From positions 1 to 64,000 of the forward strand of contig CALAJN010000011.1 of NCBI GenBank assembly GCA_937922675.1: a DNA stretch of 64,000 nucleotides. Direction: 5' to 3'. This DNA comes from an uncultured Granulosicoccaceae bacterium. Lineage in GTDB: Bacteria; Pseudomonadota; Gammaproteobacteria; Granulosicoccales; Granulosicoccaceae. The number at the start of each line of letters is the position of its first letter. Within the stretch, counting starts at the first letter, position 1. Made by a program: the position numbers and the translations under genes. The notes below the pieces were generated by a model. That model ran no database searches. It was not told the DNA's origin and was given only the letters and a program-made list of their open reading frames with translations. Shown piece by piece: positions 115 to 49,651 of this stretch.

Positions 115-405
115 GGTGTGACTCCGATAAGTGATTGAGTTTGAATTCGGTCGAAACCGTGGCGCCGTGTGGCTGCCCTGTTTCGATGTAAGTAGTATCG
201 GGTCGGTTGCTTGCTGCTGTGTTGTTGGAAATATACAGCGGTGTAAGGCCCACATCTGATGTGTGCGTTGTGTCAGCCCCTTGCGCTTTCGTGCATGGGG
301 GGGGCGAAGGCTGCAACTCGCCCGTCTCAGTGAGTGATTGAGCGCCGCAGGCGTGGAGCCGCATTTATACTGCTGGCTGAAACCGTGAACATTCGAAGGC
401 ACACC

Positions 406-42299: not shown

Positions 42300-44951
42300 C
42301 TAGTGACGCAAGGCGGCGTTCTCTACGACACCGGGTATCTGATTGATCAACAGGCTCTTGTCCTGACCTTCGAGCACCGAAGGTGGCGCGGTTTTTCCGG
42401 TCGAGCTGATCAGGGACAAAACGACCGCGGAGACATACGGGATCGCTTGTACAACGAGCAAGGTCACCCAGAGTCGGGTGTCGGCGAGATACGCATCATC
42501 GCGTTGAGCAATGGTGAATGCAGCCAACAGCAAGGCGAAAGCTAGTAGACATTCTTCACGTGCATCGTTGAGCGCTTGTAGCCACCCGTGTTTTGCTACG
42601 CACTTGGGCGTTCTGAAAAAGCCGATGGAGGTGTTGTGCAAGCCTGCCAGCATGGCTCGCGAAATCGTATGCGAGACCGCAAGACCAGCGATTGCCGCTG
42701 CAATACTCTGGAGCCCGGAGGCTCGCATGCGCCAGCGATAGAGTACTAACATCTTGCTGACCTTGAAGATGAAAAAGCTGATCGGTAGCAAGCTGAGCAT
42801 GACTTCCGGAGGAGTGAAGTCATGCGGGTAGAGAATCAGAAGCACTGAAAAAGCGAGCGCAATGCAATTGAACAGCAGACTCAAGCCATCAGCCATCCAC
42901 GGTAGCCAGCCGGCCAGAAAGTGATAGCGTTGACCGGAGTTGAGCTTCGAATTTGACAACGACAGGAAGTAGCGAATGTGATGGCGCAGTATCAAGGCTG
43001 AGCCGTATGCCCAACGAAATCGCTGCTTCTTGTAGTCAAGAAAGGTATCTGGCATGAGTCCGCGGCCGTAGGACTGAGGTACGTACACAGCGCGGTGGCC
43101 ATCGGCGAGAATACGCAATCCAAGCTCTGCGTCCTCTGTGATGCACCAGGTCGCCCAACCGTCAACATCTTGTAGCGCCGTGCGACGCACGATCGTCATG
43201 GTGCCATGCTGGATGATCGCGTTGCGTGCATCGCGGTTGAGCATGCCAATGCCGAAAAAGCCTGCGTATTCACAATAGATCATCGACTTGAACAGACTCT
43301 CGTCTGCGTCTCGGTAGTCCTGAGGTGCCTGTACGATCGCGACTTGTCGATCCTCAAACAGCGGCAGGCACTCGGCTAGCCAATTCGGAGCAACCACATA
43401 GTCGCTGTCGATAACGGCGACGTAGTCAACGTCTTGCGCTGTGTACTCAAGTGCCAGATTCAGTGCACCTGCCTTGTAGCCTTTAAGGTTATCAACGTGC
43501 CAGAAGCGAAAGCGCTCACCCTGCCGTGCACACCAGTCCTGCACCGGTTGCCATTTGCCTGCGTCCCTGGTGTTGTTGTCGATCACGATGACTTCGTAGT
43601 CGGGATAGTCAAGCTCACGCAAGGCTGCCAGAGTCTCGATGACCATCTCCGGGGGCTCGTCATGGACAGGCACATGAATCGACACCTTGCCGCCCGGTCG
43701 TGTGGAGTAACGTAACCGTCCACGTGGCCGGTGATTTCGTTTGTTCCAGATCGACTCTGCCCACTCGTGTGCCTCGGTCAGCAGTACCAGCGAGATGCAC
43801 AAGGCAGCAATCAATACACCGATGCCAACCAGCACCTGCTCCCAGGTGAGGTACTTTTGCGAGTAGTCATAAACAAGCCAGACCACAGCGCTCGACAAGG
43901 CGCAGGAGACCAGCACCAGAAAGCCACGTCCGCCATGTACCAAGCCGCCGCTATCGCGCAACAGGAGCGTTAGCAGCAATATGGTGATTGCAATGGACAA
44001 GCCGGCTAATGCTGGCCATTCGGGCACCGCCGTTACCGGTGCAGCAAACGGAAACTTTGCTTCGCGTTGTGCGTTATAGATGCCCCAGTAGCGCCCTACC
44101 GCACCTTCATTGGTTTTCCAGATCTGGTCAAAGGCTTCGAGTACGAAGTAGTCGGTTTCACGCTCGCCCGCGGTCCTCAGAAACTGGCGCAAGAAGGTTG
44201 CCTGATTTTTCAGCGAGGGCTCGGCGCCACCTCGCTTTCTGCCCTCGCTGGGCCAGCCGACCTCGCCCAGCATCACAGGCTTGCCGGCAAAGGTTTGCTC
44301 CAGTTGTTCAAGCCGCTCGAATACGTATTCGTCAGCTTGATGCGCGGGCACACCTTCCCAGTAGGGCAACACGTGTGCAGTGATGAAATCAACGTGCTCT
44401 GCCAGCGACGGGTTCTTGATCCAGTTGCTCCAGGTCTCCGCCACGGTAACGGGTATGGGGGCAACAAACTGGCGTACCTCGTTGACATAGGCTGTCAACT
44501 CCTCGACATCGAGCTCGTTGCGCAGCAGGGTCTCGTTACCGACGATGATGGCATCGACAGAACCCTGAAACTCGGGCAAGCGTCTGATCAGGTCATTGAT
44601 TTCGCGCTCGTTACGCTCCAGATCGTCGGAAATCCAGACGCCTACAGTGCTGGTAAGCCCGCGCTCACGGGCAAGACGGGGTACCGCACCCAGGGTGCCC
44701 TCGGTTGAGTACGTACGTACCGAGCGAACCTTGTCGCTGAGTAGATCGAGGTCTCGTGCTATCTGATCCTCGCTGGGATAAGAGGCGCCTTCCGGAGATT
44801 GATTGGGGCGAAACGGCGAGAACGAAACCCCCTCGATCATGGCGGGCCACGGCGGCGCGTATCCCGGACGGTTGAACAGCGCCCACAGTGCGATGAGTAG
44901 CGTTGCGGCTACCAACAGGAGAATCCAGGATGCGCGGTCGATGGTTTTCAA
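42300..44951 (-). CDS. ndvB: NdvB-type beta-1,3-glucan synthase (GH17-GT2 fusion)
   Basis: 883 residues. One N-terminal membrane anchor precedes a periplasmic GH17 glucanosyltransferase domain (about 38-310), with acid/base Glu140 in VGNETLLR and nucleophile Glu230 in LGEVGWPSEG. Membrane helices lead to a cytoplasmic GT2 domain with VIDNNT, DSDY, TEDAE and QRFRW, the processive synthase motifs. More helices follow. The same domain order occurs in Pseudomonas NdvB, which makes cyclic beta-1,3-glucans linked to biofilm drug tolerance and osmoadaptation. The 352-base leader region upstream has a direct-repeat regulatory candidate. Confidence 0.94.
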   Translation of the reverse strand: MKTIDRASWILLLVAATLLIALWALFNRPGYAPPWPAMIEGVSFSPFRPNQSPEGASYPSEDQIARDLDLLSDKVRSVRTYSTEGTLGAVPRLARERGLTSTVGVWISDDLERNEREINDLIRRLPEFQGSVDAIIVGNETLLRNELDVEELTAYVNEVRQFVAPIPVTVAETWSNWIKNPSLAEHVDFITAHVLPYWEGVPAHQADEYVFERLEQLEQTFAGKPVMLGEVGWPSEGRKRGGAEPSLKNQATFLRQFLRTAGERETDYFVLEAFDQIWKTNEGAVGRYWGIYNAQREAKFPFAAPVTAVPEWPALAGLSIAITILLLTLLLRDSGGLVHGGRGFLVLVSCALSSAVVWLVYDYSQKYLTWEQVLVGIGVLIAALCISLVLLTEAHEWAESIWNKRNHRPRGRLRYSTRPGGKVSIHVPVHDEPPEMVIETLAALRELDYPDYEVIVIDNNTRDAGKWQPVQDWCARQGERFRFWHVDNLKGYKAGALNLALEYTAQDVDYVAVIDSDYVVAPNWLAECLPLFEDRQVAIVQAPQDYRDADESLFKSMIYCEYAGFFGIGMLNRDARNAIIQHGTMTIVRRTALQDVDGWATWCITEDAELGLRILADGHRAVYVPQSYGRGLMPDTFLDYKKQRFRWAYGSALILRHHIRYFLSLSNSKLNSGQRYHFLAGWLPWMADGLSLLFNCIALAFSVLLILYPHDFTPPEVMLSLLPISFFIFKVSKMLVLYRWRMRASGLQSIAAAIAGLAVSHTISRAMLAGLHNTSIGFFRTPKCVAKHGWLQALNDAREECLLAFALLLAAFTIAQRDDAYLADTRLWVTLLVVQAIPYVSAVVLSLISSTGKTAPPSVLEGQDKSLLINQIPGVVENAALRH

Positions 44952-45303
44952 GGTTCAGGCGGACATCCGATGTTCATCGTGCCCGCGGCGCTGGGGGGAT
45001 CACCAGGCGCTGCAGGTGTGCGGTCTAGTCCGAATACAGTGCGTGAAACGGGTAAGCTGTGCAATGAAATTACGGAATGAGACTTAGTTTTTCACGCAAT
45101 CGTCACAAACGTGTCACATAATTCCAGTACGGATGGGGTGTTTCTGTCGTTTTGGAAGAGTGCTGCCCTCGATCTTGCTGAGCTGTCATTGTAATCTCAG
45201 CAGGCGCGTGTGACGCGGGTCTCACTGGTAAATGTGATTGAGTCGCAGTCGGCGAAGCGAGTCTTCAAGTGCCGGGTGCGATGTCGGCAACCGCTGCTCC
45301 GTG
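44952..45303. other. Intergenic region upstream of ndvB (352 bases)
   Basis: No coding sequence could be supported. It is expected to hold the ndvB promoter, and it includes an 11-base-period direct repeat (separate entry) about 150 bases upstream of the ndvB start. The right end borders the stop of the SDR gene; no clear rho-independent terminator was found. Confidence 0.6.
45102..45118. promoter_or_regulatory. Pho-box-like direct repeat upstream of ndvB
   Basis: GTCACA at 45102-45107 recurs at 45113-45118, an exact 11-base period, followed by TAATTCC. PhoB sites are two seven-base direct repeats of the CTGTCAT type spaced to an 11-base period, so the match is suggestive. The forward orientation points away from ndvB, which weakens the case. 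An OmpR/CpxR-type response regulator site is another possibility. Confidence 0.35.
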
Positions 45304-46011
45304 TCAGTTCTTGCGGGCGATCACATTCTGACGAGGTTTGATCACGATCTCATCAATGATCGCTCGATCATCGCTTTCTATCATTGTCAGGACAGCCTGG
45401 GCTATGTCTTCCGGATGCAGCGCATTGGCCTCGTTGGGACCGGGCTCGAATTCAAGCGTGTCAAAAAAGCTTGATCGTGTCAGTCCGGGTTGAACAATGC
45501 CCACATGCACGTTCGCACCCGCCAGCTCCTGGCGCAATGCCTGCGCGGCACCTCTCAGGCCAAACTTGGCCGCGCTGTAGAGGCTGCCTTGGCGCCCGCC
45601 ATTGAGCGCGCTCTCAGAGCCGATGAATATCAGATCACTGCGATCCCGTGAGCGCAAGTCCGCGACGCACTCTCGTGCCACGACCAACGGGCTGGCAAGG
45701 TTCAGTTGCAGGCTTGGACCAATTTTTTTGACCGAGATATTCTCAAGCGGTGCTATGTCACCGGTCCCGGCATTGAGCACAACCGTGTCGATGGCGTGTT
45801 GTCTGCACAGCCTGGATACGACCTGCGAGGTTTGTTCAAGGTCGGATAAATCAAGCGGTACACGCTGCACGCCAGGCAAGGCTGTGGCGGATGCTTGATG
45901 CCATCGAGCAAGCCCGATCACCGTATGACCGCGTTGTACGAGTTGCGTGGCAATAGCGGCGCCGATGCCGCGACTGGCCCCGGTCAGTAATACCGTGCGC
46001 GAGGTGCTCAT
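45304..46011 (-). CDS. Short-chain dehydrogenase (third gene of SplB operon)
   Basis: 235 residues, classical SDR fold. The cofactor motif is TGASRGIG (10-17), then DLSDLEQTSQV near 54, LNAGTG near 80, catalytic Ser in FIGSES near 129 and YSAAKFGLRG near 145-154 with Tyr and Lys. Substrate unknown. Its ATG overlaps the stop of the SplB-like gene by four bases, so the two are translationally coupled and presumably act in the same process. Confidence 0.88.
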   Translation of the reverse strand: MSTSRTVLLTGASRGIGAAIATQLVQRGHTVIGLARWHQASATALPGVQRVPLDLSDLEQTSQVVSRLCRQHAIDTVVLNAGTGDIAPLENISVKKIGPSLQLNLASPLVVARECVADLRSRDRSDLIFIGSESALNGGRQGSLYSAAKFGLRGAAQALRQELAGANVHVGIVQPGLTRSSFFDTLEFEPGPNEANALHPEDIAQAVLTMIESDDRAIIDEIVIKPRQNVIARKN

Positions 46012-47030
46012 GAGCCTGCAGTCGTTGAGGCGGGTGCGGGGATGTCAGTCACACACTCGAACAATCGCTCTGCAGTGACTGCAGATGCAATTCGTGAGCG
46101 ACAATACTCCATCAGGCCCTGTTCACGTTCCGCGGGATAACTCATCATGTCGCCGTGGCGCTGCATTGGCGCTGCGAGCAGTCGTGAGTCCGGGTACATG
46201 CGAACCAACTTGCTGTGAAAGGCACGCGGCAGGCGAAAGCTGCCGAGAGTGGCAGAGTGCACCGCGAGGGTATCGAGTTCATCAAAGACTTGATCAAAAA
46301 ACTCTGCATACAAAGCAAGTGCGTCGTCAGATGCAATGATCGGATCAAAGCGCAAACCGATGGGCCAGCCGTGTGCTTGCAGTCGCTTGAGTGCGTCAAG
46401 GCGTCTCTTGAGCGTGGGTGTGCCATGCTCCTCGGCGCTGACAATGGCCTCGGGTGACAAGCTGAAAGCGACGACAACCCGTGTGTCGGCAGCTCGGCGC
46501 AACAGAGGTCTTATCTGAACGCTCTTTGTTCTGAGCTCCAGGCGGACCTTGTCCATGGTGGCAAGACGGTCGAGCATGGCATCGACAAATCCTGTCAGAG
46601 GGTCAAGTGCCAGTGAGTCGCAGTCATAACCGGAGAAAAACCAGCTGGGATGTTCATTGGCTGCAGCTGTTGTCTGGATATCCTCAAAAAAATCCTCGAA
46701 GTTCACAAAGACAACGTGGTGTGCGCTTCTGTACATGCCTTGTAGAAAGCAGTATCGACAGTCGTACACGCAGTTGAGCATGTGAGCAAAGTAGTAGTTG
46801 TGCTCGCCCCCTATTCCGTAGCCGGGCGGTGTGGGTAACACGCGTTTGCCACGTTTTTCGGCAAGGATCAGTGCTGGTCTGGCTTTTTGCTCCCTGAAGT
46901 TCTGCCCCGCTGCATTGAATACATCGGTGTAGCGCTTGATCGGAACATGCCGGGCTGCCGACTGACGTTCCAGCAAACGTAGGGTCTGTGGATGCGATGC
47001 GATGGATTCCTCGAAGTAGACCGTGTCCAT
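46008..47030 (-). CDS. SplB-family radical SAM protein (spore photoproduct lyase-like)
   Basis: 340 residues. The iron-sulfur cluster motif CVYDCRYCFLQG (CxxxCxxC) lies near residue 88. It is preceded by LPTPPGYGIGGEHNYYFAHMLNC and followed by FSGYDCDSLALDPLTGF, as in the spore photoproduct lyase family. LELRTKS and VVVAFSLSPE continue the family pattern. True SplB repairs spore photoproduct in endospores; non-sporulating proteobacteria carry homologues of uncertain substrate. The gene overlaps its two neighbours by 1 and 4 bases, forming a tight operon. Confidence 0.88.
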   Translation of the reverse strand: MDTVYFEESIASHPQTLRLLERQSAARHVPIKRYTDVFNAAGQNFREQKARPALILAEKRGKRVLPTPPGYGIGGEHNYYFAHMLNCVYDCRYCFLQGMYRSAHHVVFVNFEDFFEDIQTTAAANEHPSWFFSGYDCDSLALDPLTGFVDAMLDRLATMDKVRLELRTKSVQIRPLLRRAADTRVVVAFSLSPEAIVSAEEHGTPTLKRRLDALKRLQAHGWPIGLRFDPIIASDDALALYAEFFDQVFDELDTLAVHSATLGSFRLPRAFHSKLVRMYPDSRLLAAPMQRHGDMMSYPAEREQGLMEYCRSRIASAVTAERLFECVTDIPAPASTTAGS

Positions 47031-47869
47031 CAGCTCGCCTTGTAATGGATGGCGATAGCCTCAACGCGCTGTTGCAGTTGTGCTGCAATCACGTCAGCCG
47101 AGGCGTACCGCACAAGCTCGGTGTCCGCAGGCAGAGTGCCCGCCAAAGCAAGATGCCTGGCAAGCAGGCGGTGCAGGTAGTGTTTTTCACTCTCGCTGTG
47201 GTGGACCACATCTGTTATTGCCACAGCAGCGCTCGTTACCGCTGTTCGATGAGCATGGGCAGGTTCACTACGTTGTGACAAATGACTGACAAGCTTGTTG
47301 ATGGTGGGCAAGTGTGGCTCGAGCAAGGCACTGACGTCGTTGCTTCTGACCAGCTCGACAGGGGCCTCCGGCCCATCGGAGAGCACTTTCAGGCAGCAGA
47401 TGCCGCCGGTACCCAGCACGGGTATCGCAGCTGCACAGAGGCCTGCTGCTTCCATGTCATAGATGCGGTCCGGGCGATAGTCAGTGGAGGGAGCGTCCAC
47501 TGTCTCGACCAGCGTGTGCCGGGTATTCGGTAGCTCGCGTTGTGCTGGCAAGTCCGGATACCAGCGGCGGCCACTGCCTTGATCGAGCACAGCGTGGCCA
47601 AGCCAGAGCGAGCCTTGCTTACCCGTCCCGCCAGCAATACCGACATTGAGTACCGAGCGAACCGAGGGGTAGGCACACAGGCTTGCGGCGAGCATCGCTG
47701 CTGCGCGCAACTTGCCGAGGCCTGTTTCCAGCAGCACGACGTCCTGTGACACGTACAGTGGGCAGGGGAGTGACGGATGATCGGCTCGGCGCAGGCGCAG
47801 GTATCGCCGTATAGGTCGTGACTCCTGGGCAAGAGCTGTGGCAATACACATTCGAGGCAGGGGCGGCAT
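47030..47869 (-). CDS. Nucleoside phosphorylase/nucleosidase family protein
   Basis: 279 residues, the first gene of the three-gene operon. The fold of the MTA/SAH nucleosidase and purine phosphorylase superfamily is indicated by ATALAQESRPI at the start, LETGLGK near 47, VLNVGIAGGTG near 72, the ribose-binding IYDMEAAGL with the catalytic-type Met-Glu near 137, and KVLSDGPEAP near 160. The C-terminal 80 residues are an extra helical part not found in MTA nucleosidase. The substrate is not determinable. Its stop shares one base with the SplB start. Confidence 0.8.
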   Translation of the reverse strand: MPPLPRMCIATALAQESRPIRRYLRLRRADHPSLPCPLYVSQDVVLLETGLGKLRAAAMLAASLCAYPSVRSVLNVGIAGGTGKQGSLWLGHAVLDQGSGRRWYPDLPAQRELPNTRHTLVETVDAPSTDYRPDRIYDMEAAGLCAAAIPVLGTGGICCLKVLSDGPEAPVELVRSNDVSALLEPHLPTINKLVSHLSQRSEPAHAHRTAVTSAAVAITDVVHHSESEKHYLHRLLARHLALAGTLPADTELVRYASADVIAAQLQQRVEAIAIHYKAS

Positions 47870-47963
47870 GCGCGCAGTGTAGCCGCAGTCAATGTCGTAT
47901 CGTGGCGATTGCTTACCCGTTTCGGCGCTACACTGCTGTGCGGGAACACTGGAGCCTCACTGT

Positions 47964-48281
47964 ATGTTGCTGTCCAACCTTGAGTTTTTACCGGACCGGA
48001 CCATCAAGAGTCATCTTGGCCTGGTGCAGGGGAGCTCGGTTCGCTCAAAGCACGTGGGTCGCGACATAGGGGCCAGTCTCAAGAGTATTTTTGGTGGCGA
48101 GCTCAAGGGCTACACCGAGCTCCTGCATGATTCTCGTGAGGAGGCAACAGAGCGCTTGCTGGAGCAAGCGAGAAGTCTGGGTGCCAACGCCGTGATCAAT
48201 GTGCGTTACAGCACGTCGAGCATTGCCGCCGGTGCTGCCGAGATCTTTGTCTATGGCTCTGCTGTGCTGCTTGACGAATGA
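47964..48281 (+). CDS. YbjQ-like heavy-metal-binding domain protein
   Basis: 105 residues, UPF0145/YbjQ fold that forms pentamers; function unknown despite the heavy-metal-binding label. The family pattern GLVQGSSVRSKHVGRDIGASLKSIFGGELKGYTELL is followed by REEATERLLEQARSLGANAVINVRY. The ATG at 47964 is chosen because GGAG lies nine bases upstream and the product aligns with YbjQ from its first residues. Its stop overlaps the next gene by four bases. Confidence 0.9.
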   Translation: MLLSNLEFLPDRTIKSHLGLVQGSSVRSKHVGRDIGASLKSIFGGELKGYTELLHDSREEATERLLEQARSLGANAVINVRYSTSSIAAGAAEIFVYGSAVLLDE

Positions 48282-48763
48282 TAGGCCTGAGTGCAGAGCT
48301 GCTGATCTTTGTTGCTCTGATGTTGCTCGGTTATGGCTTTGGTAGCCTGATCGAAAGACGCCACCGCAAGAGCATCATACGACGTGAACTTGAGCTTAAC
48401 CGCTTGCCAGCGATTGCCAGTCGTCGTCCACCTGAGGACAGGCCGTATGCCCAACAGCTGGTGAGCGGCAGCGTCGTGATTGGTTCCGACTACTTCAAGA
48501 CTTTCCTGTCCGGGCTCATCAACCTCTTTGGTGGGCGGGTCACCCCGTTTGAGTCGCTGATTGACAGAGCGCGTCGCGAGGCCATCTTGAGACTGAAAGA
48601 GGAGGCACGTGATATCGGTGCAAGTCATGTCTTCAATGTGAAGTACGAAACCGCGCGTATCGCGACGGGAAGGGTTCCGGCGCTTGAAGTGCTTGCCTAC
48701 GGAACGGCGCTGATCCCTGCAGCGGACATATCGCGTAGCACACACGATACCTCACAAGCCTGA
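48278..48763 (+). CDS. Membrane-anchored YbjQ-like protein
   Basis: 161 residues. An N-terminal membrane helix (about 7-25) and a basic segment precede a second YbjQ domain: LVSGSVVIGSDYFKTFLSGLINLFGGRVTPFESLIDRARREAILRL and DIGASHVFNVKYET. It is thus an anchored paralogue of the gene before it, translationally coupled by an ATGA overlap. The C-terminal tail after about 148 is not conserved. Function unknown; a role with the following membrane peptidase is implied by the operon. Confidence 0.85.
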   Translation: MIGLSAELLIFVALMLLGYGFGSLIERRHRKSIIRRELELNRLPAIASRRPPEDRPYAQQLVSGSVVIGSDYFKTFLSGLINLFGGRVTPFESLIDRARREAILRLKEEARDIGASHVFNVKYETARIATGRVPALEVLAYGTALIPAADISRSTHDTSQA

Positions 48764-48772
48764 TTGCGGCCC

Positions 48773-49651
48773 ATGGTCCAGTACGAAAATCGCCAGCCTG
48801 CCGAAGACATCAATGTCACAAGAACTCACCCGCTCAAGACGTTTGCAATCTATGCCTTGAGTGCGCTGATTCTGGTTGTGCTGTTAGCCGTCCTGATGCA
48901 ATTTTTTGGCGGGTTTATTGCCAAACGAGTGCCTTTTTCTGTTGAAACACGTGTTACAGAGGCCGTGGGAATTGAGCTGGGGAGCCGCGATGCTCCTCCC
49001 GAGTTGGTGAGCTATCTCAACGAGCTAGGCCTGCGCTTGTTGCCGTACATCGACATGCCGGAGGGTATGAGTGTCGATATTCACTACGACAAGGAGAATG
49101 TCTTCAACGCCTTTGCCACACTTGGCGGCAACCTGATGTTCTATCGCGGTCTACTCAGCGTTTTGCCACATGAAAACGCGCTGGCAATGGTCATGGCCCA
49201 TGAAATCGCGCACGTCCTGCATCGTGACCCGGCAGCATCACTGGGTGGTGGTGTTGCCACTGCACTGGTGCTGGCAGGGCTCACTGGCAATGCAGGCACG
49301 GGGCCTGCCTCAGGTGTGCTTTCGCGCGCGGGTATGGTGACAGGGATGCAGTTCACAAGACGTATGGAAGTGGCGGCCGATGAAGTCGCCGTGGCGGCTG
49401 TGGGGGGGCTGTATGGGCACACTGAGGGCGCGGCTGATTTGTTCCTGGCGATTGCTGCGCAGCGTTCAGCAGGCTCAGACGAGACGTCCGATGACAGTCC
49501 TGGTCTGTTCGAGCGATTTGCCAGCACTCACCCGCTGGATACTGACCGGATTGATGCGATCAAGACCTCGGCCAAAAAATACGGCCTCTTGACTGAAGGC
49601 GCGACAACCCCGTTGCCAGACGACTTTCAGCGCTGGCTCGCGGCCAACTGA
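48773..49651 (+). CDS. M48-family membrane metallopeptidase
   Basis: 292 residues. A single N-terminal membrane helix at about 24-44 is followed by a periplasmic M48 domain: zinc motif HEIAH near 144-148, the third ligand region EVAADEVAVAAV near 204, and STHPLDTDRIDAI near 257. The LGGNLMFYRGLLSVLPHENALAMVM segment is typical of HtpX/BepA-type proteases. The ATG at 48773 was chosen over a TTG three codons earlier. It follows the two YbjQ genes in the same direction with 9 bases between stop and start. Confidence 0.9.
   Translation: MVQYENRQPAEDINVTRTHPLKTFAIYALSALILVVLLAVLMQFFGGFIAKRVPFSVETRVTEAVGIELGSRDAPPELVSYLNELGLRLLPYIDMPEGMSVDIHYDKENVFNAFATLGGNLMFYRGLLSVLPHENALAMVMAHEIAHVLHRDPAASLGGGVATALVLAGLTGNAGTGPASGVLSRAGMVTGMQFTRRMEVAADEVAVAAVGGLYGHTEGAADLFLAIAAQRSAGSDETSDDSPGLFERFASTHPLDTDRIDAIKTSAKKYGLLTEGATTPLPDDFQRWLAAN

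Follow-up and report, generated by a model that had tools for sequence, protein, structure and literature searches.

Three genes on the reverse strand of a 64,000-nucleotide stretch of DNA (the window) from an uncultured marine Granulosicoccaceae bacterium form one overlapping unit. The source genome, 3.63 Mb in 20 contigs, groups with Granulosicoccus. The genes encode a phosphorylase-superfamily nucleosidase (NUC; 47030..47869, 279 residues), a radical S-adenosylmethionine (SAM) protein related to spore photoproduct lyase (SPL; 46008..47030, 340 residues), and a short-chain dehydrogenase/reductase (SDR; 45304..46011, 235 residues). The stop codon of NUC and the start of SPL share one base, and the stop codon of SPL and the start of SDR overlap by four. 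A prior interpretation made from the letters alone, here called the sequence-only reading, had delimited the same three open reading frames (ORFs) with the same overlaps, which we confirm, and had proposed a pathway for repair or salvage of DNA or nucleotide photoproducts. A promoter scan of positions 45000-48300 found none. As detailed below, a glycosyltransferase (GT2) is the usual fourth member of the set, and we conclude with high confidence that GT2, NUC, and SPL constitute one system.

The middle protein scores 67.9 bits to the Pfam spore photoproduct lyase model PF20903 (cut-off 27), and the CxxxCxxC motif that the sequence-only reading had noted is found at residues 87-94 (Cys87, Cys91, and Cys94; reverse strand, 46749..46772). 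Its predicted structure (pLDDT 84.7) aligns over nearly its whole length with the lyase of G. thermodenitrificans (4rh0; Z 32.6, rmsd 2.7, 321 residues aligned), the second-best fold being pyruvate formate-lyase activating enzyme at Z 14.7. The resemblance of this protein to the family, also part of that reading, is supported by the fold. With SplB (TIGR04070; PF20903), SPL shares the whole fold, CxxxCxxC, and a tyrosine between the last two cysteines. It falls well short of the NCBIfam equivalog cut-offs, reaching 76 of 400 bits for TIGR04070 and 38.6 of 437.55 for TIGR03886, a spore photoproduct lyase family protein model whose members belong to the same superfamily but to another part of the tree.

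SPL differs from SplB in its active site as well as in its partners NUC, SDR, and GT2. In the portion of PMC3742179 that we draw on, the hydrogen comes from C141 of the Bacillus subtilis lyase, and Y99 passes the radical on so that SAM is regenerated; mutation of either residue leads to stoichiometric use of SAM. Alignment to the PDB chains places Cys140 of the G. thermodenitrificans enzyme, equivalent to B. subtilis Cys141, at Tyr135 of SPL, within the motif FSGYDCDS (residues 132-139; reverse strand, 46614..46637), and places Tyr98, equivalent to B. subtilis Tyr99, at Phe95, directly after the cluster motif. Among 79 members of the clade to which SPL belongs, designated type I, the Cys141 position holds tyrosine in 78 and histidine in one, and the Tyr99 position holds phenylalanine in 78 and tyrosine in one; neither the hydrogen-donor cysteine nor the relay tyrosine is thus conserved. 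A cysteine two residues past the Cys141 position, Cys137 in SPL, occurs in 75 of the 79. Its candidacy as an essential hydrogen donor is weakened by glycine or alanine in the other four and by its absence from the type II and type III proteins described below.

NUC alone matches PF01048 weakly (20.2 bits, cut-off 25.1), and 18 of 20 aligned homologs match that model at E <= 0.1. Its predicted structure (pLDDT 93.9) aligns over residues 1-199 with the methylthioadenosine/S-adenosylhomocysteine (MTA/SAH) nucleosidase (MTAN) / futalosine hydrolase of H. pylori (Z 23.1, rmsd 2.4, 192 residues aligned). Glu16 (47822..47824), which aligns with MTAN Glu12, Met139-Glu140 (47450..47455), and Ser164-Asp165 (47375..47380), which aligns with the MTAN Ser-Asp pair, show no variation across 31 of 31 aligned rows; all align with MTAN residues. 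In MTAN the Met-Glu pair holds the ribose and the Asp protonates N7 of the purine, an atom that 7-deazapurines lack; mutants named in PDB titles (Glu12Gln, Asp197Asn) back the roles of those two MTAN residues. These residues suggest an adenosine-like ribonucleoside as substrate, and it is plausible, as the sequence-only reading had supposed, that the nucleosidase works on the adenosine portion of what SAM chemistry yields. NUC differs from MTA/SAH nucleosidases and futalosine hydrolases in its gene partners, in scores below the equivalog cut-offs (34.3 of 124.7 bits for TIGR03664, 24.4 of 169 for NF004079), and in an extra C-terminal domain, helical in the model, at residues about 204-279 (reverse strand, 47030..47260). 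SDR, with TGxxxGxG and YxxxK motifs, scores 114.1 bits to PF00106 (cut-off 26.6), and Gly11, Gly15, Gly17, Tyr145, and Lys149, expected in a classical SDR, are invariant in 11 of 11 aligned rows.

A search of 57 near relatives found SPL matches in 38 and NUC matches in 38. One of these 38 genomes (G044) carries a different SPL type, at 25% identity, with its SPL and NUC matches on separate contigs. Gene order was compared at 37 loci from the family and its nearest relatives, all with a strong type I SPL, and at 43 further type I loci from gammaproteobacteria. NUC lies directly upstream of SPL at 36 of the 37 near loci, the single exception being L075, which holds the latter half of a gene broken across contigs. 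It has the same position at 35 of the 43 further loci. Conservation of the trio elsewhere, the check that the sequence-only reading had named for itself, is therefore observed. Among the eight further loci with no adjacent NUC, one (L142) ends at a contig end and another (L155) has a weak match of 38 bits in the NUC position; four genomes with no adjacent copy (G209, G275, G110, and G374) encode NUC elsewhere. SDR lies directly downstream of SPL at 25 of 37 near loci and 29 of 43 further loci, and is absent at some loci that keep the rest of the neighborhood, such as L061 and L062. In two genomes of one genus, a gene for the tRNA dihydrouridine synthase DusA, scoring above its cut-off, replaces SDR and overlaps SPL by four bases (L165:3945-4901, L170:4908-5870). 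When a profile of 17 type I SPL sequences was run against 369 gammaproteobacterial genomes, 49 scored 464-571 bits and, after a gap, the remainder scored no more than 160 bits. In a sample of 397 genomes from the phylum, the source genome stood alone at the type I level, the next best match being 57 bits. The coupling of the trio is more than chance.

Clustering of neighboring ORFs revealed the GT2 glycosyltransferase (PF00535) conserved beside NUC. It lies no more than 200 bases upstream of NUC at 27 of the 43 further loci, and GT2, NUC, SPL, and SDR all stand in a row at 19. Across the 369 gammaproteobacterial genomes, SPL of any type occurs in 64 (counting G295 and G383, which have partial SPL matches only), the orthologous GT2 in 59, and NUC in 58, with cut-offs of at least 335 bits for GT2 and at least 141 bits for NUC that were placed at score gaps after inspection. 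Every genome with GT2 and every genome with NUC falls within the SPL set, and none of the 305 genomes lacking SPL has either one above the score gaps (Fisher p 5e-63 for GT2 and 3e-61 for NUC, uncorrected for phylogeny). Below the cut-offs are GT2 relatives of no more than 182 bits and five NUC-like matches of no more than 41 bits in SPL-less genomes. The profile search found no NUC in six of the 64 SPL genomes (G086, G094, G109, G231, G318, and G329), three of which have NUC as part of a fusion. In the source genome, GT2 is encoded on the same contig outside the window, about 23 kb past the trio (C11:70530-71342), with 46% identity and a score of 263 bits where the next best match has 86. Although displaced in Granulosicoccus, GT2 is retained in 27 of 27 genomes of this genus-level group, and it is present in eight of nine others of the family. 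Against TIGR04283, named for an arsenosugar glycosyltransferase, GT2 scores 60.2 of 182 bits. Two loci have a TmcA-like gene directly before GT2 (L152:1581-3434, L155:1768-3570; 303.5 bits against a cut-off of 700, scored in L152 only), and two others have a small gene resembling DSP-type phosphatases between GT2 and NUC (L073:4457-4963, L136:6758-7240).

Two further SPL types extend the association. Type II proteins, 411-476 residues long, reach 96-116 bits with the profile of type I and occur in 10 of the 369 genomes. There NUC has no C-terminal domain (as in rows L077 and L185), SPL itself is encoded away from the other members, and GT2, NUC, and SDR are consecutive within about 430 bases in eight of the ten genomes, with GT2 and NUC together in nine. 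Type II SPL has an N-terminal extension similar to the C-terminal domain of NUC, with an hhalign score of 23.8 as compared to a mean of 9.8 (sd 1.7, maximum 15.6) for 200 column shuffles and 12.6 for a reversed alignment. We consider it moderately well supported that this domain has moved between NUC and SPL. In the three type III genomes (G109, G231, and G329), NUC and GT2 are fused in a protein of 493-500 residues that scores 333-341 bits to the GT2 profile and about 28 bits to the NUC profile; against PF01048, scored for one of the three, it gives 22.8 bits (E 7e-5), short of the 25.1-bit cut-off. In a tree built from 38 SPL cores, which carries a long-branch warning, a branch separates each type from the rest (support 97/96 for type I, 100/99 for type II, and 99/96 for type III), and another separates the three together from ten SPL sequences of the phylum sample (98/96). 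Type II (L182-L190, L076) and type III (L179-L181) proteins share a conserved cysteine and then CCN upstream of CxxxCxxC, a feature absent from type I that might bind a second metal.

Relatives also occur outside the phylum. A Fusobacterium vincentii record encodes a 623-residue fusion in which residues 1-239 match NUC (126.7 bits) and residues 300-622 match SPL (268 bits), with SDR (150 bits) next in order; the profile of the NUC C-terminal domain finds no match in this fusion. One human faecal contig encodes NUC, SPL, and SDR in order, and a second encodes SDR, a 160-residue ORF, and SPL. These Fusobacterium and faecal SPL relatives have tyrosine at the Tyr99 relay position. The three records are among five distant matches from a plasmid collection and two from a phage collection. 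A viral contig collection, scanned twice, yielded no relative, and we reject carriage by viruses. The Fusobacterium record (NZ_CP084075.1), 2.1 Mb in length, labeled a plasmid, and bearing one annotated feature, looks like a mislabeled chromosome. The faecal contigs (MT835514.1, MT835770.1), labeled "Bacteriophage sp." (UNVERIFIED), read as bacterial DNA; the ORFs that surround the trio there resemble transporter genes. The sequence-only view of the genes as one functional unit is thus borne out by conservation beyond the genus. The NUC-GT2 fusions in three genomes and the NUC-SPL fusion in Fusobacterium also tie GT2, NUC, and SPL together.

Other neighbors of the trio are more variable. In the window it is flanked by a GH17-GT2 protein (42300-44951), present in ten compared loci, and by a divergent YbjQ-YbjQ-M48 block (47892-49651) that adjoins the trio in most loci of the Granulosicoccus group. 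Further neighbors (DnaJ, Wzc-type, universal stress, phosphatase, rhomboid-like, symporter-like, racemase, and thiolase genes, some of which we take to be such by our own reading) differ among loci and show no common theme.

The combination resembles a known one. In synthesis of the side chain of the hopanoids called bacteriohopanepolyols, as described in the part of PMC12583986 considered here, HpnH adds a 5'-deoxyadenosyl radical, HpnG removes adenine, and HpnI adds a sugar, so that a radical SAM enzyme, an adenine-removing nucleosidase, and a glycosyltransferase serve one pathway. The present set differs in having a radical SAM enzyme of SPL fold and in being unlinked to squalene-hopene cyclase, which is missing from the source genome and occurs in 8 of 50 system-positive and 6 of 30 system-negative genomes. 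On these grounds we reject a hopanoid role, and with it a hopanoid substrate for the nucleosidase, which the sequence-only reading had raised as a challenge to its own proposal. We count MqnE/MqnB and ArsS, the arsenosugar enzyme, as precedents too.

Gene order, co-occurrence, and fusion all couple a radical SAM enzyme to an adenine-type nucleosidase, and the set looks more like small-molecule biosynthesis than DNA repair. Our leading proposal, offered tentatively and by analogy, is that it makes a glycosylated metabolite through an adenosyl-radical relay; we infer each chemical step, the order of steps, and the product. SPL would cleave SAM and attach the 5'-deoxyadenosyl group to a substrate, consuming one SAM per turnover. 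NUC would then split off adenine by hydrolysis of the N-glycosidic bond, so that a 5-substituted ribose remains, SDR would reduce the 5-substituted sugar or a neighboring carbonyl, and GT2 would add a sugar. Use of one SAM per turnover would fit the changes at the Cys141 and Tyr99 positions, either of which makes SAM use stoichiometric in the B. subtilis enzyme. Several observations weigh against such a relay or against parts of it. The overall fold predicted for SPL is that of the hydrogen-abstracting lyase, not of known adenosylating enzymes, and the relay's substrate, adduct, and product are all hypothetical. SDR is not beside SPL at 14 of the 43 further loci, and hhalign gives the moved-domain match a probability of 28.5%. 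GT2 may be accessory to the set, because it was not found in the Fusobacterium stretch or the two faecal stretches (9-15 kb each), nor in five of the 64 SPL genomes (G094, G101, G227, G275, and G325).

The lyase-like fold, at Z 32.6, would suit an SPL that abstracts hydrogen and cuts or rearranges a substrate other than DNA, with NUC clearing the by-product 5'-deoxyadenosine and SDR and GT2 finishing the product. The NUC-SPL fusion of Fusobacterium would then clear 5'-deoxyadenosine at its site of formation, and no MTAN scores above the NCBIfam cut-off in any of 50 system-positive genomes. Absence of MTAN does not set the system apart, since only one of 30 system-negative genomes has an MTAN above that cut-off; for the same reason we reject NUC as a stand-in for a missing MTAN. 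The NUC-GT2 fusion, the joint occurrence of GT2, NUC, and SDR away from type II SPL, and the moved domain favor an on-pathway NUC, and we judge the by-product role rather unlikely. Salvage or remodeling of a modified nucleoside, in which NUC would free the base and the radical SAM enzyme would cut its side chain, seems less probable again. Its model is QueK/QueL of C. difficile, a pairing of nucleosidase and radical enzyme for queuosine salvage (PMC11570991, PMC7694415, as far as the portions consulted describe it) that we compared by description only. The overlap of DusA, a tRNA-modifying enzyme, with SPL in two genomes of one genus would fit. NUC, against this, keeps the Asp that in MTAN protonates N7, which a 7-deazapurine does not have, and to our knowledge neither GT2 nor SDR has any part in the queuosine salvage route.

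Repair of thymine photoproducts in DNA, the proposal of the sequence-only reading, draws on the whole SPL fold and on the placement of SplB-like proteins by others in SOS and repair contexts (PMC3765255, in the part drawn on here). Loss of the cysteine alone does not decide the matter, since the C. acetobutylicum lyase has its cysteine at a different site, according to the part of PMC5368176 considered; the residue changes are strong, not absolute, evidence against repair. In 78 of 79 members both the cysteine and the tyrosine have given way to other residues, the companions are a glycosyltransferase and a nucleosidase of ribonucleoside type that keeps the Met-Glu pair, and LexA-like boxes with no more than one mismatch occur in 6 of 75 upstream stretches (4 of 32 and 2 of 43 by group) as compared to about 9% of control stretches. 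The window itself has 39 LexA-like matches where 29 are expected, with one-mismatch boxes at 47836-47851 and 47936-47951 near the NUC start. We reject SOS control because upstream stretches in relatives show no enrichment of such boxes. Photoproduct repair is unlikely, and we would be very surprised to find it the function of this set.

The combination of GT2, NUC, SPL, and SDR is not described in the open-licence papers that we searched. What we report is a conserved set of known enzyme families, found in more than one phylum and apparently undescribed as a combination; the system itself is well supported, and the chemistry is a reasoned guess. It is possible, if somewhat doubtful, that this set is another natural adenosyl-radical relay, additional to those known for hopanoids and futalosine, in which an SPL-fold enzyme would adenosylate a new acceptor, NUC would remove adenine, SDR would make a polyol, and GT2 would cap it, giving a new class of glycosylated metabolites in many gammaproteobacterial families; Fusobacterium and gut bacteria would have a form of the set that lacks GT2. 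Spore photoproduct lyase labels in bacteria that do not form spores had suggested DNA repair. For this SPL-fold clade, co-occurrence, gene order, and fusions with a nucleosidase and a glycosyltransferase point instead to small-molecule chemistry, and they supply a concrete list of its parts.

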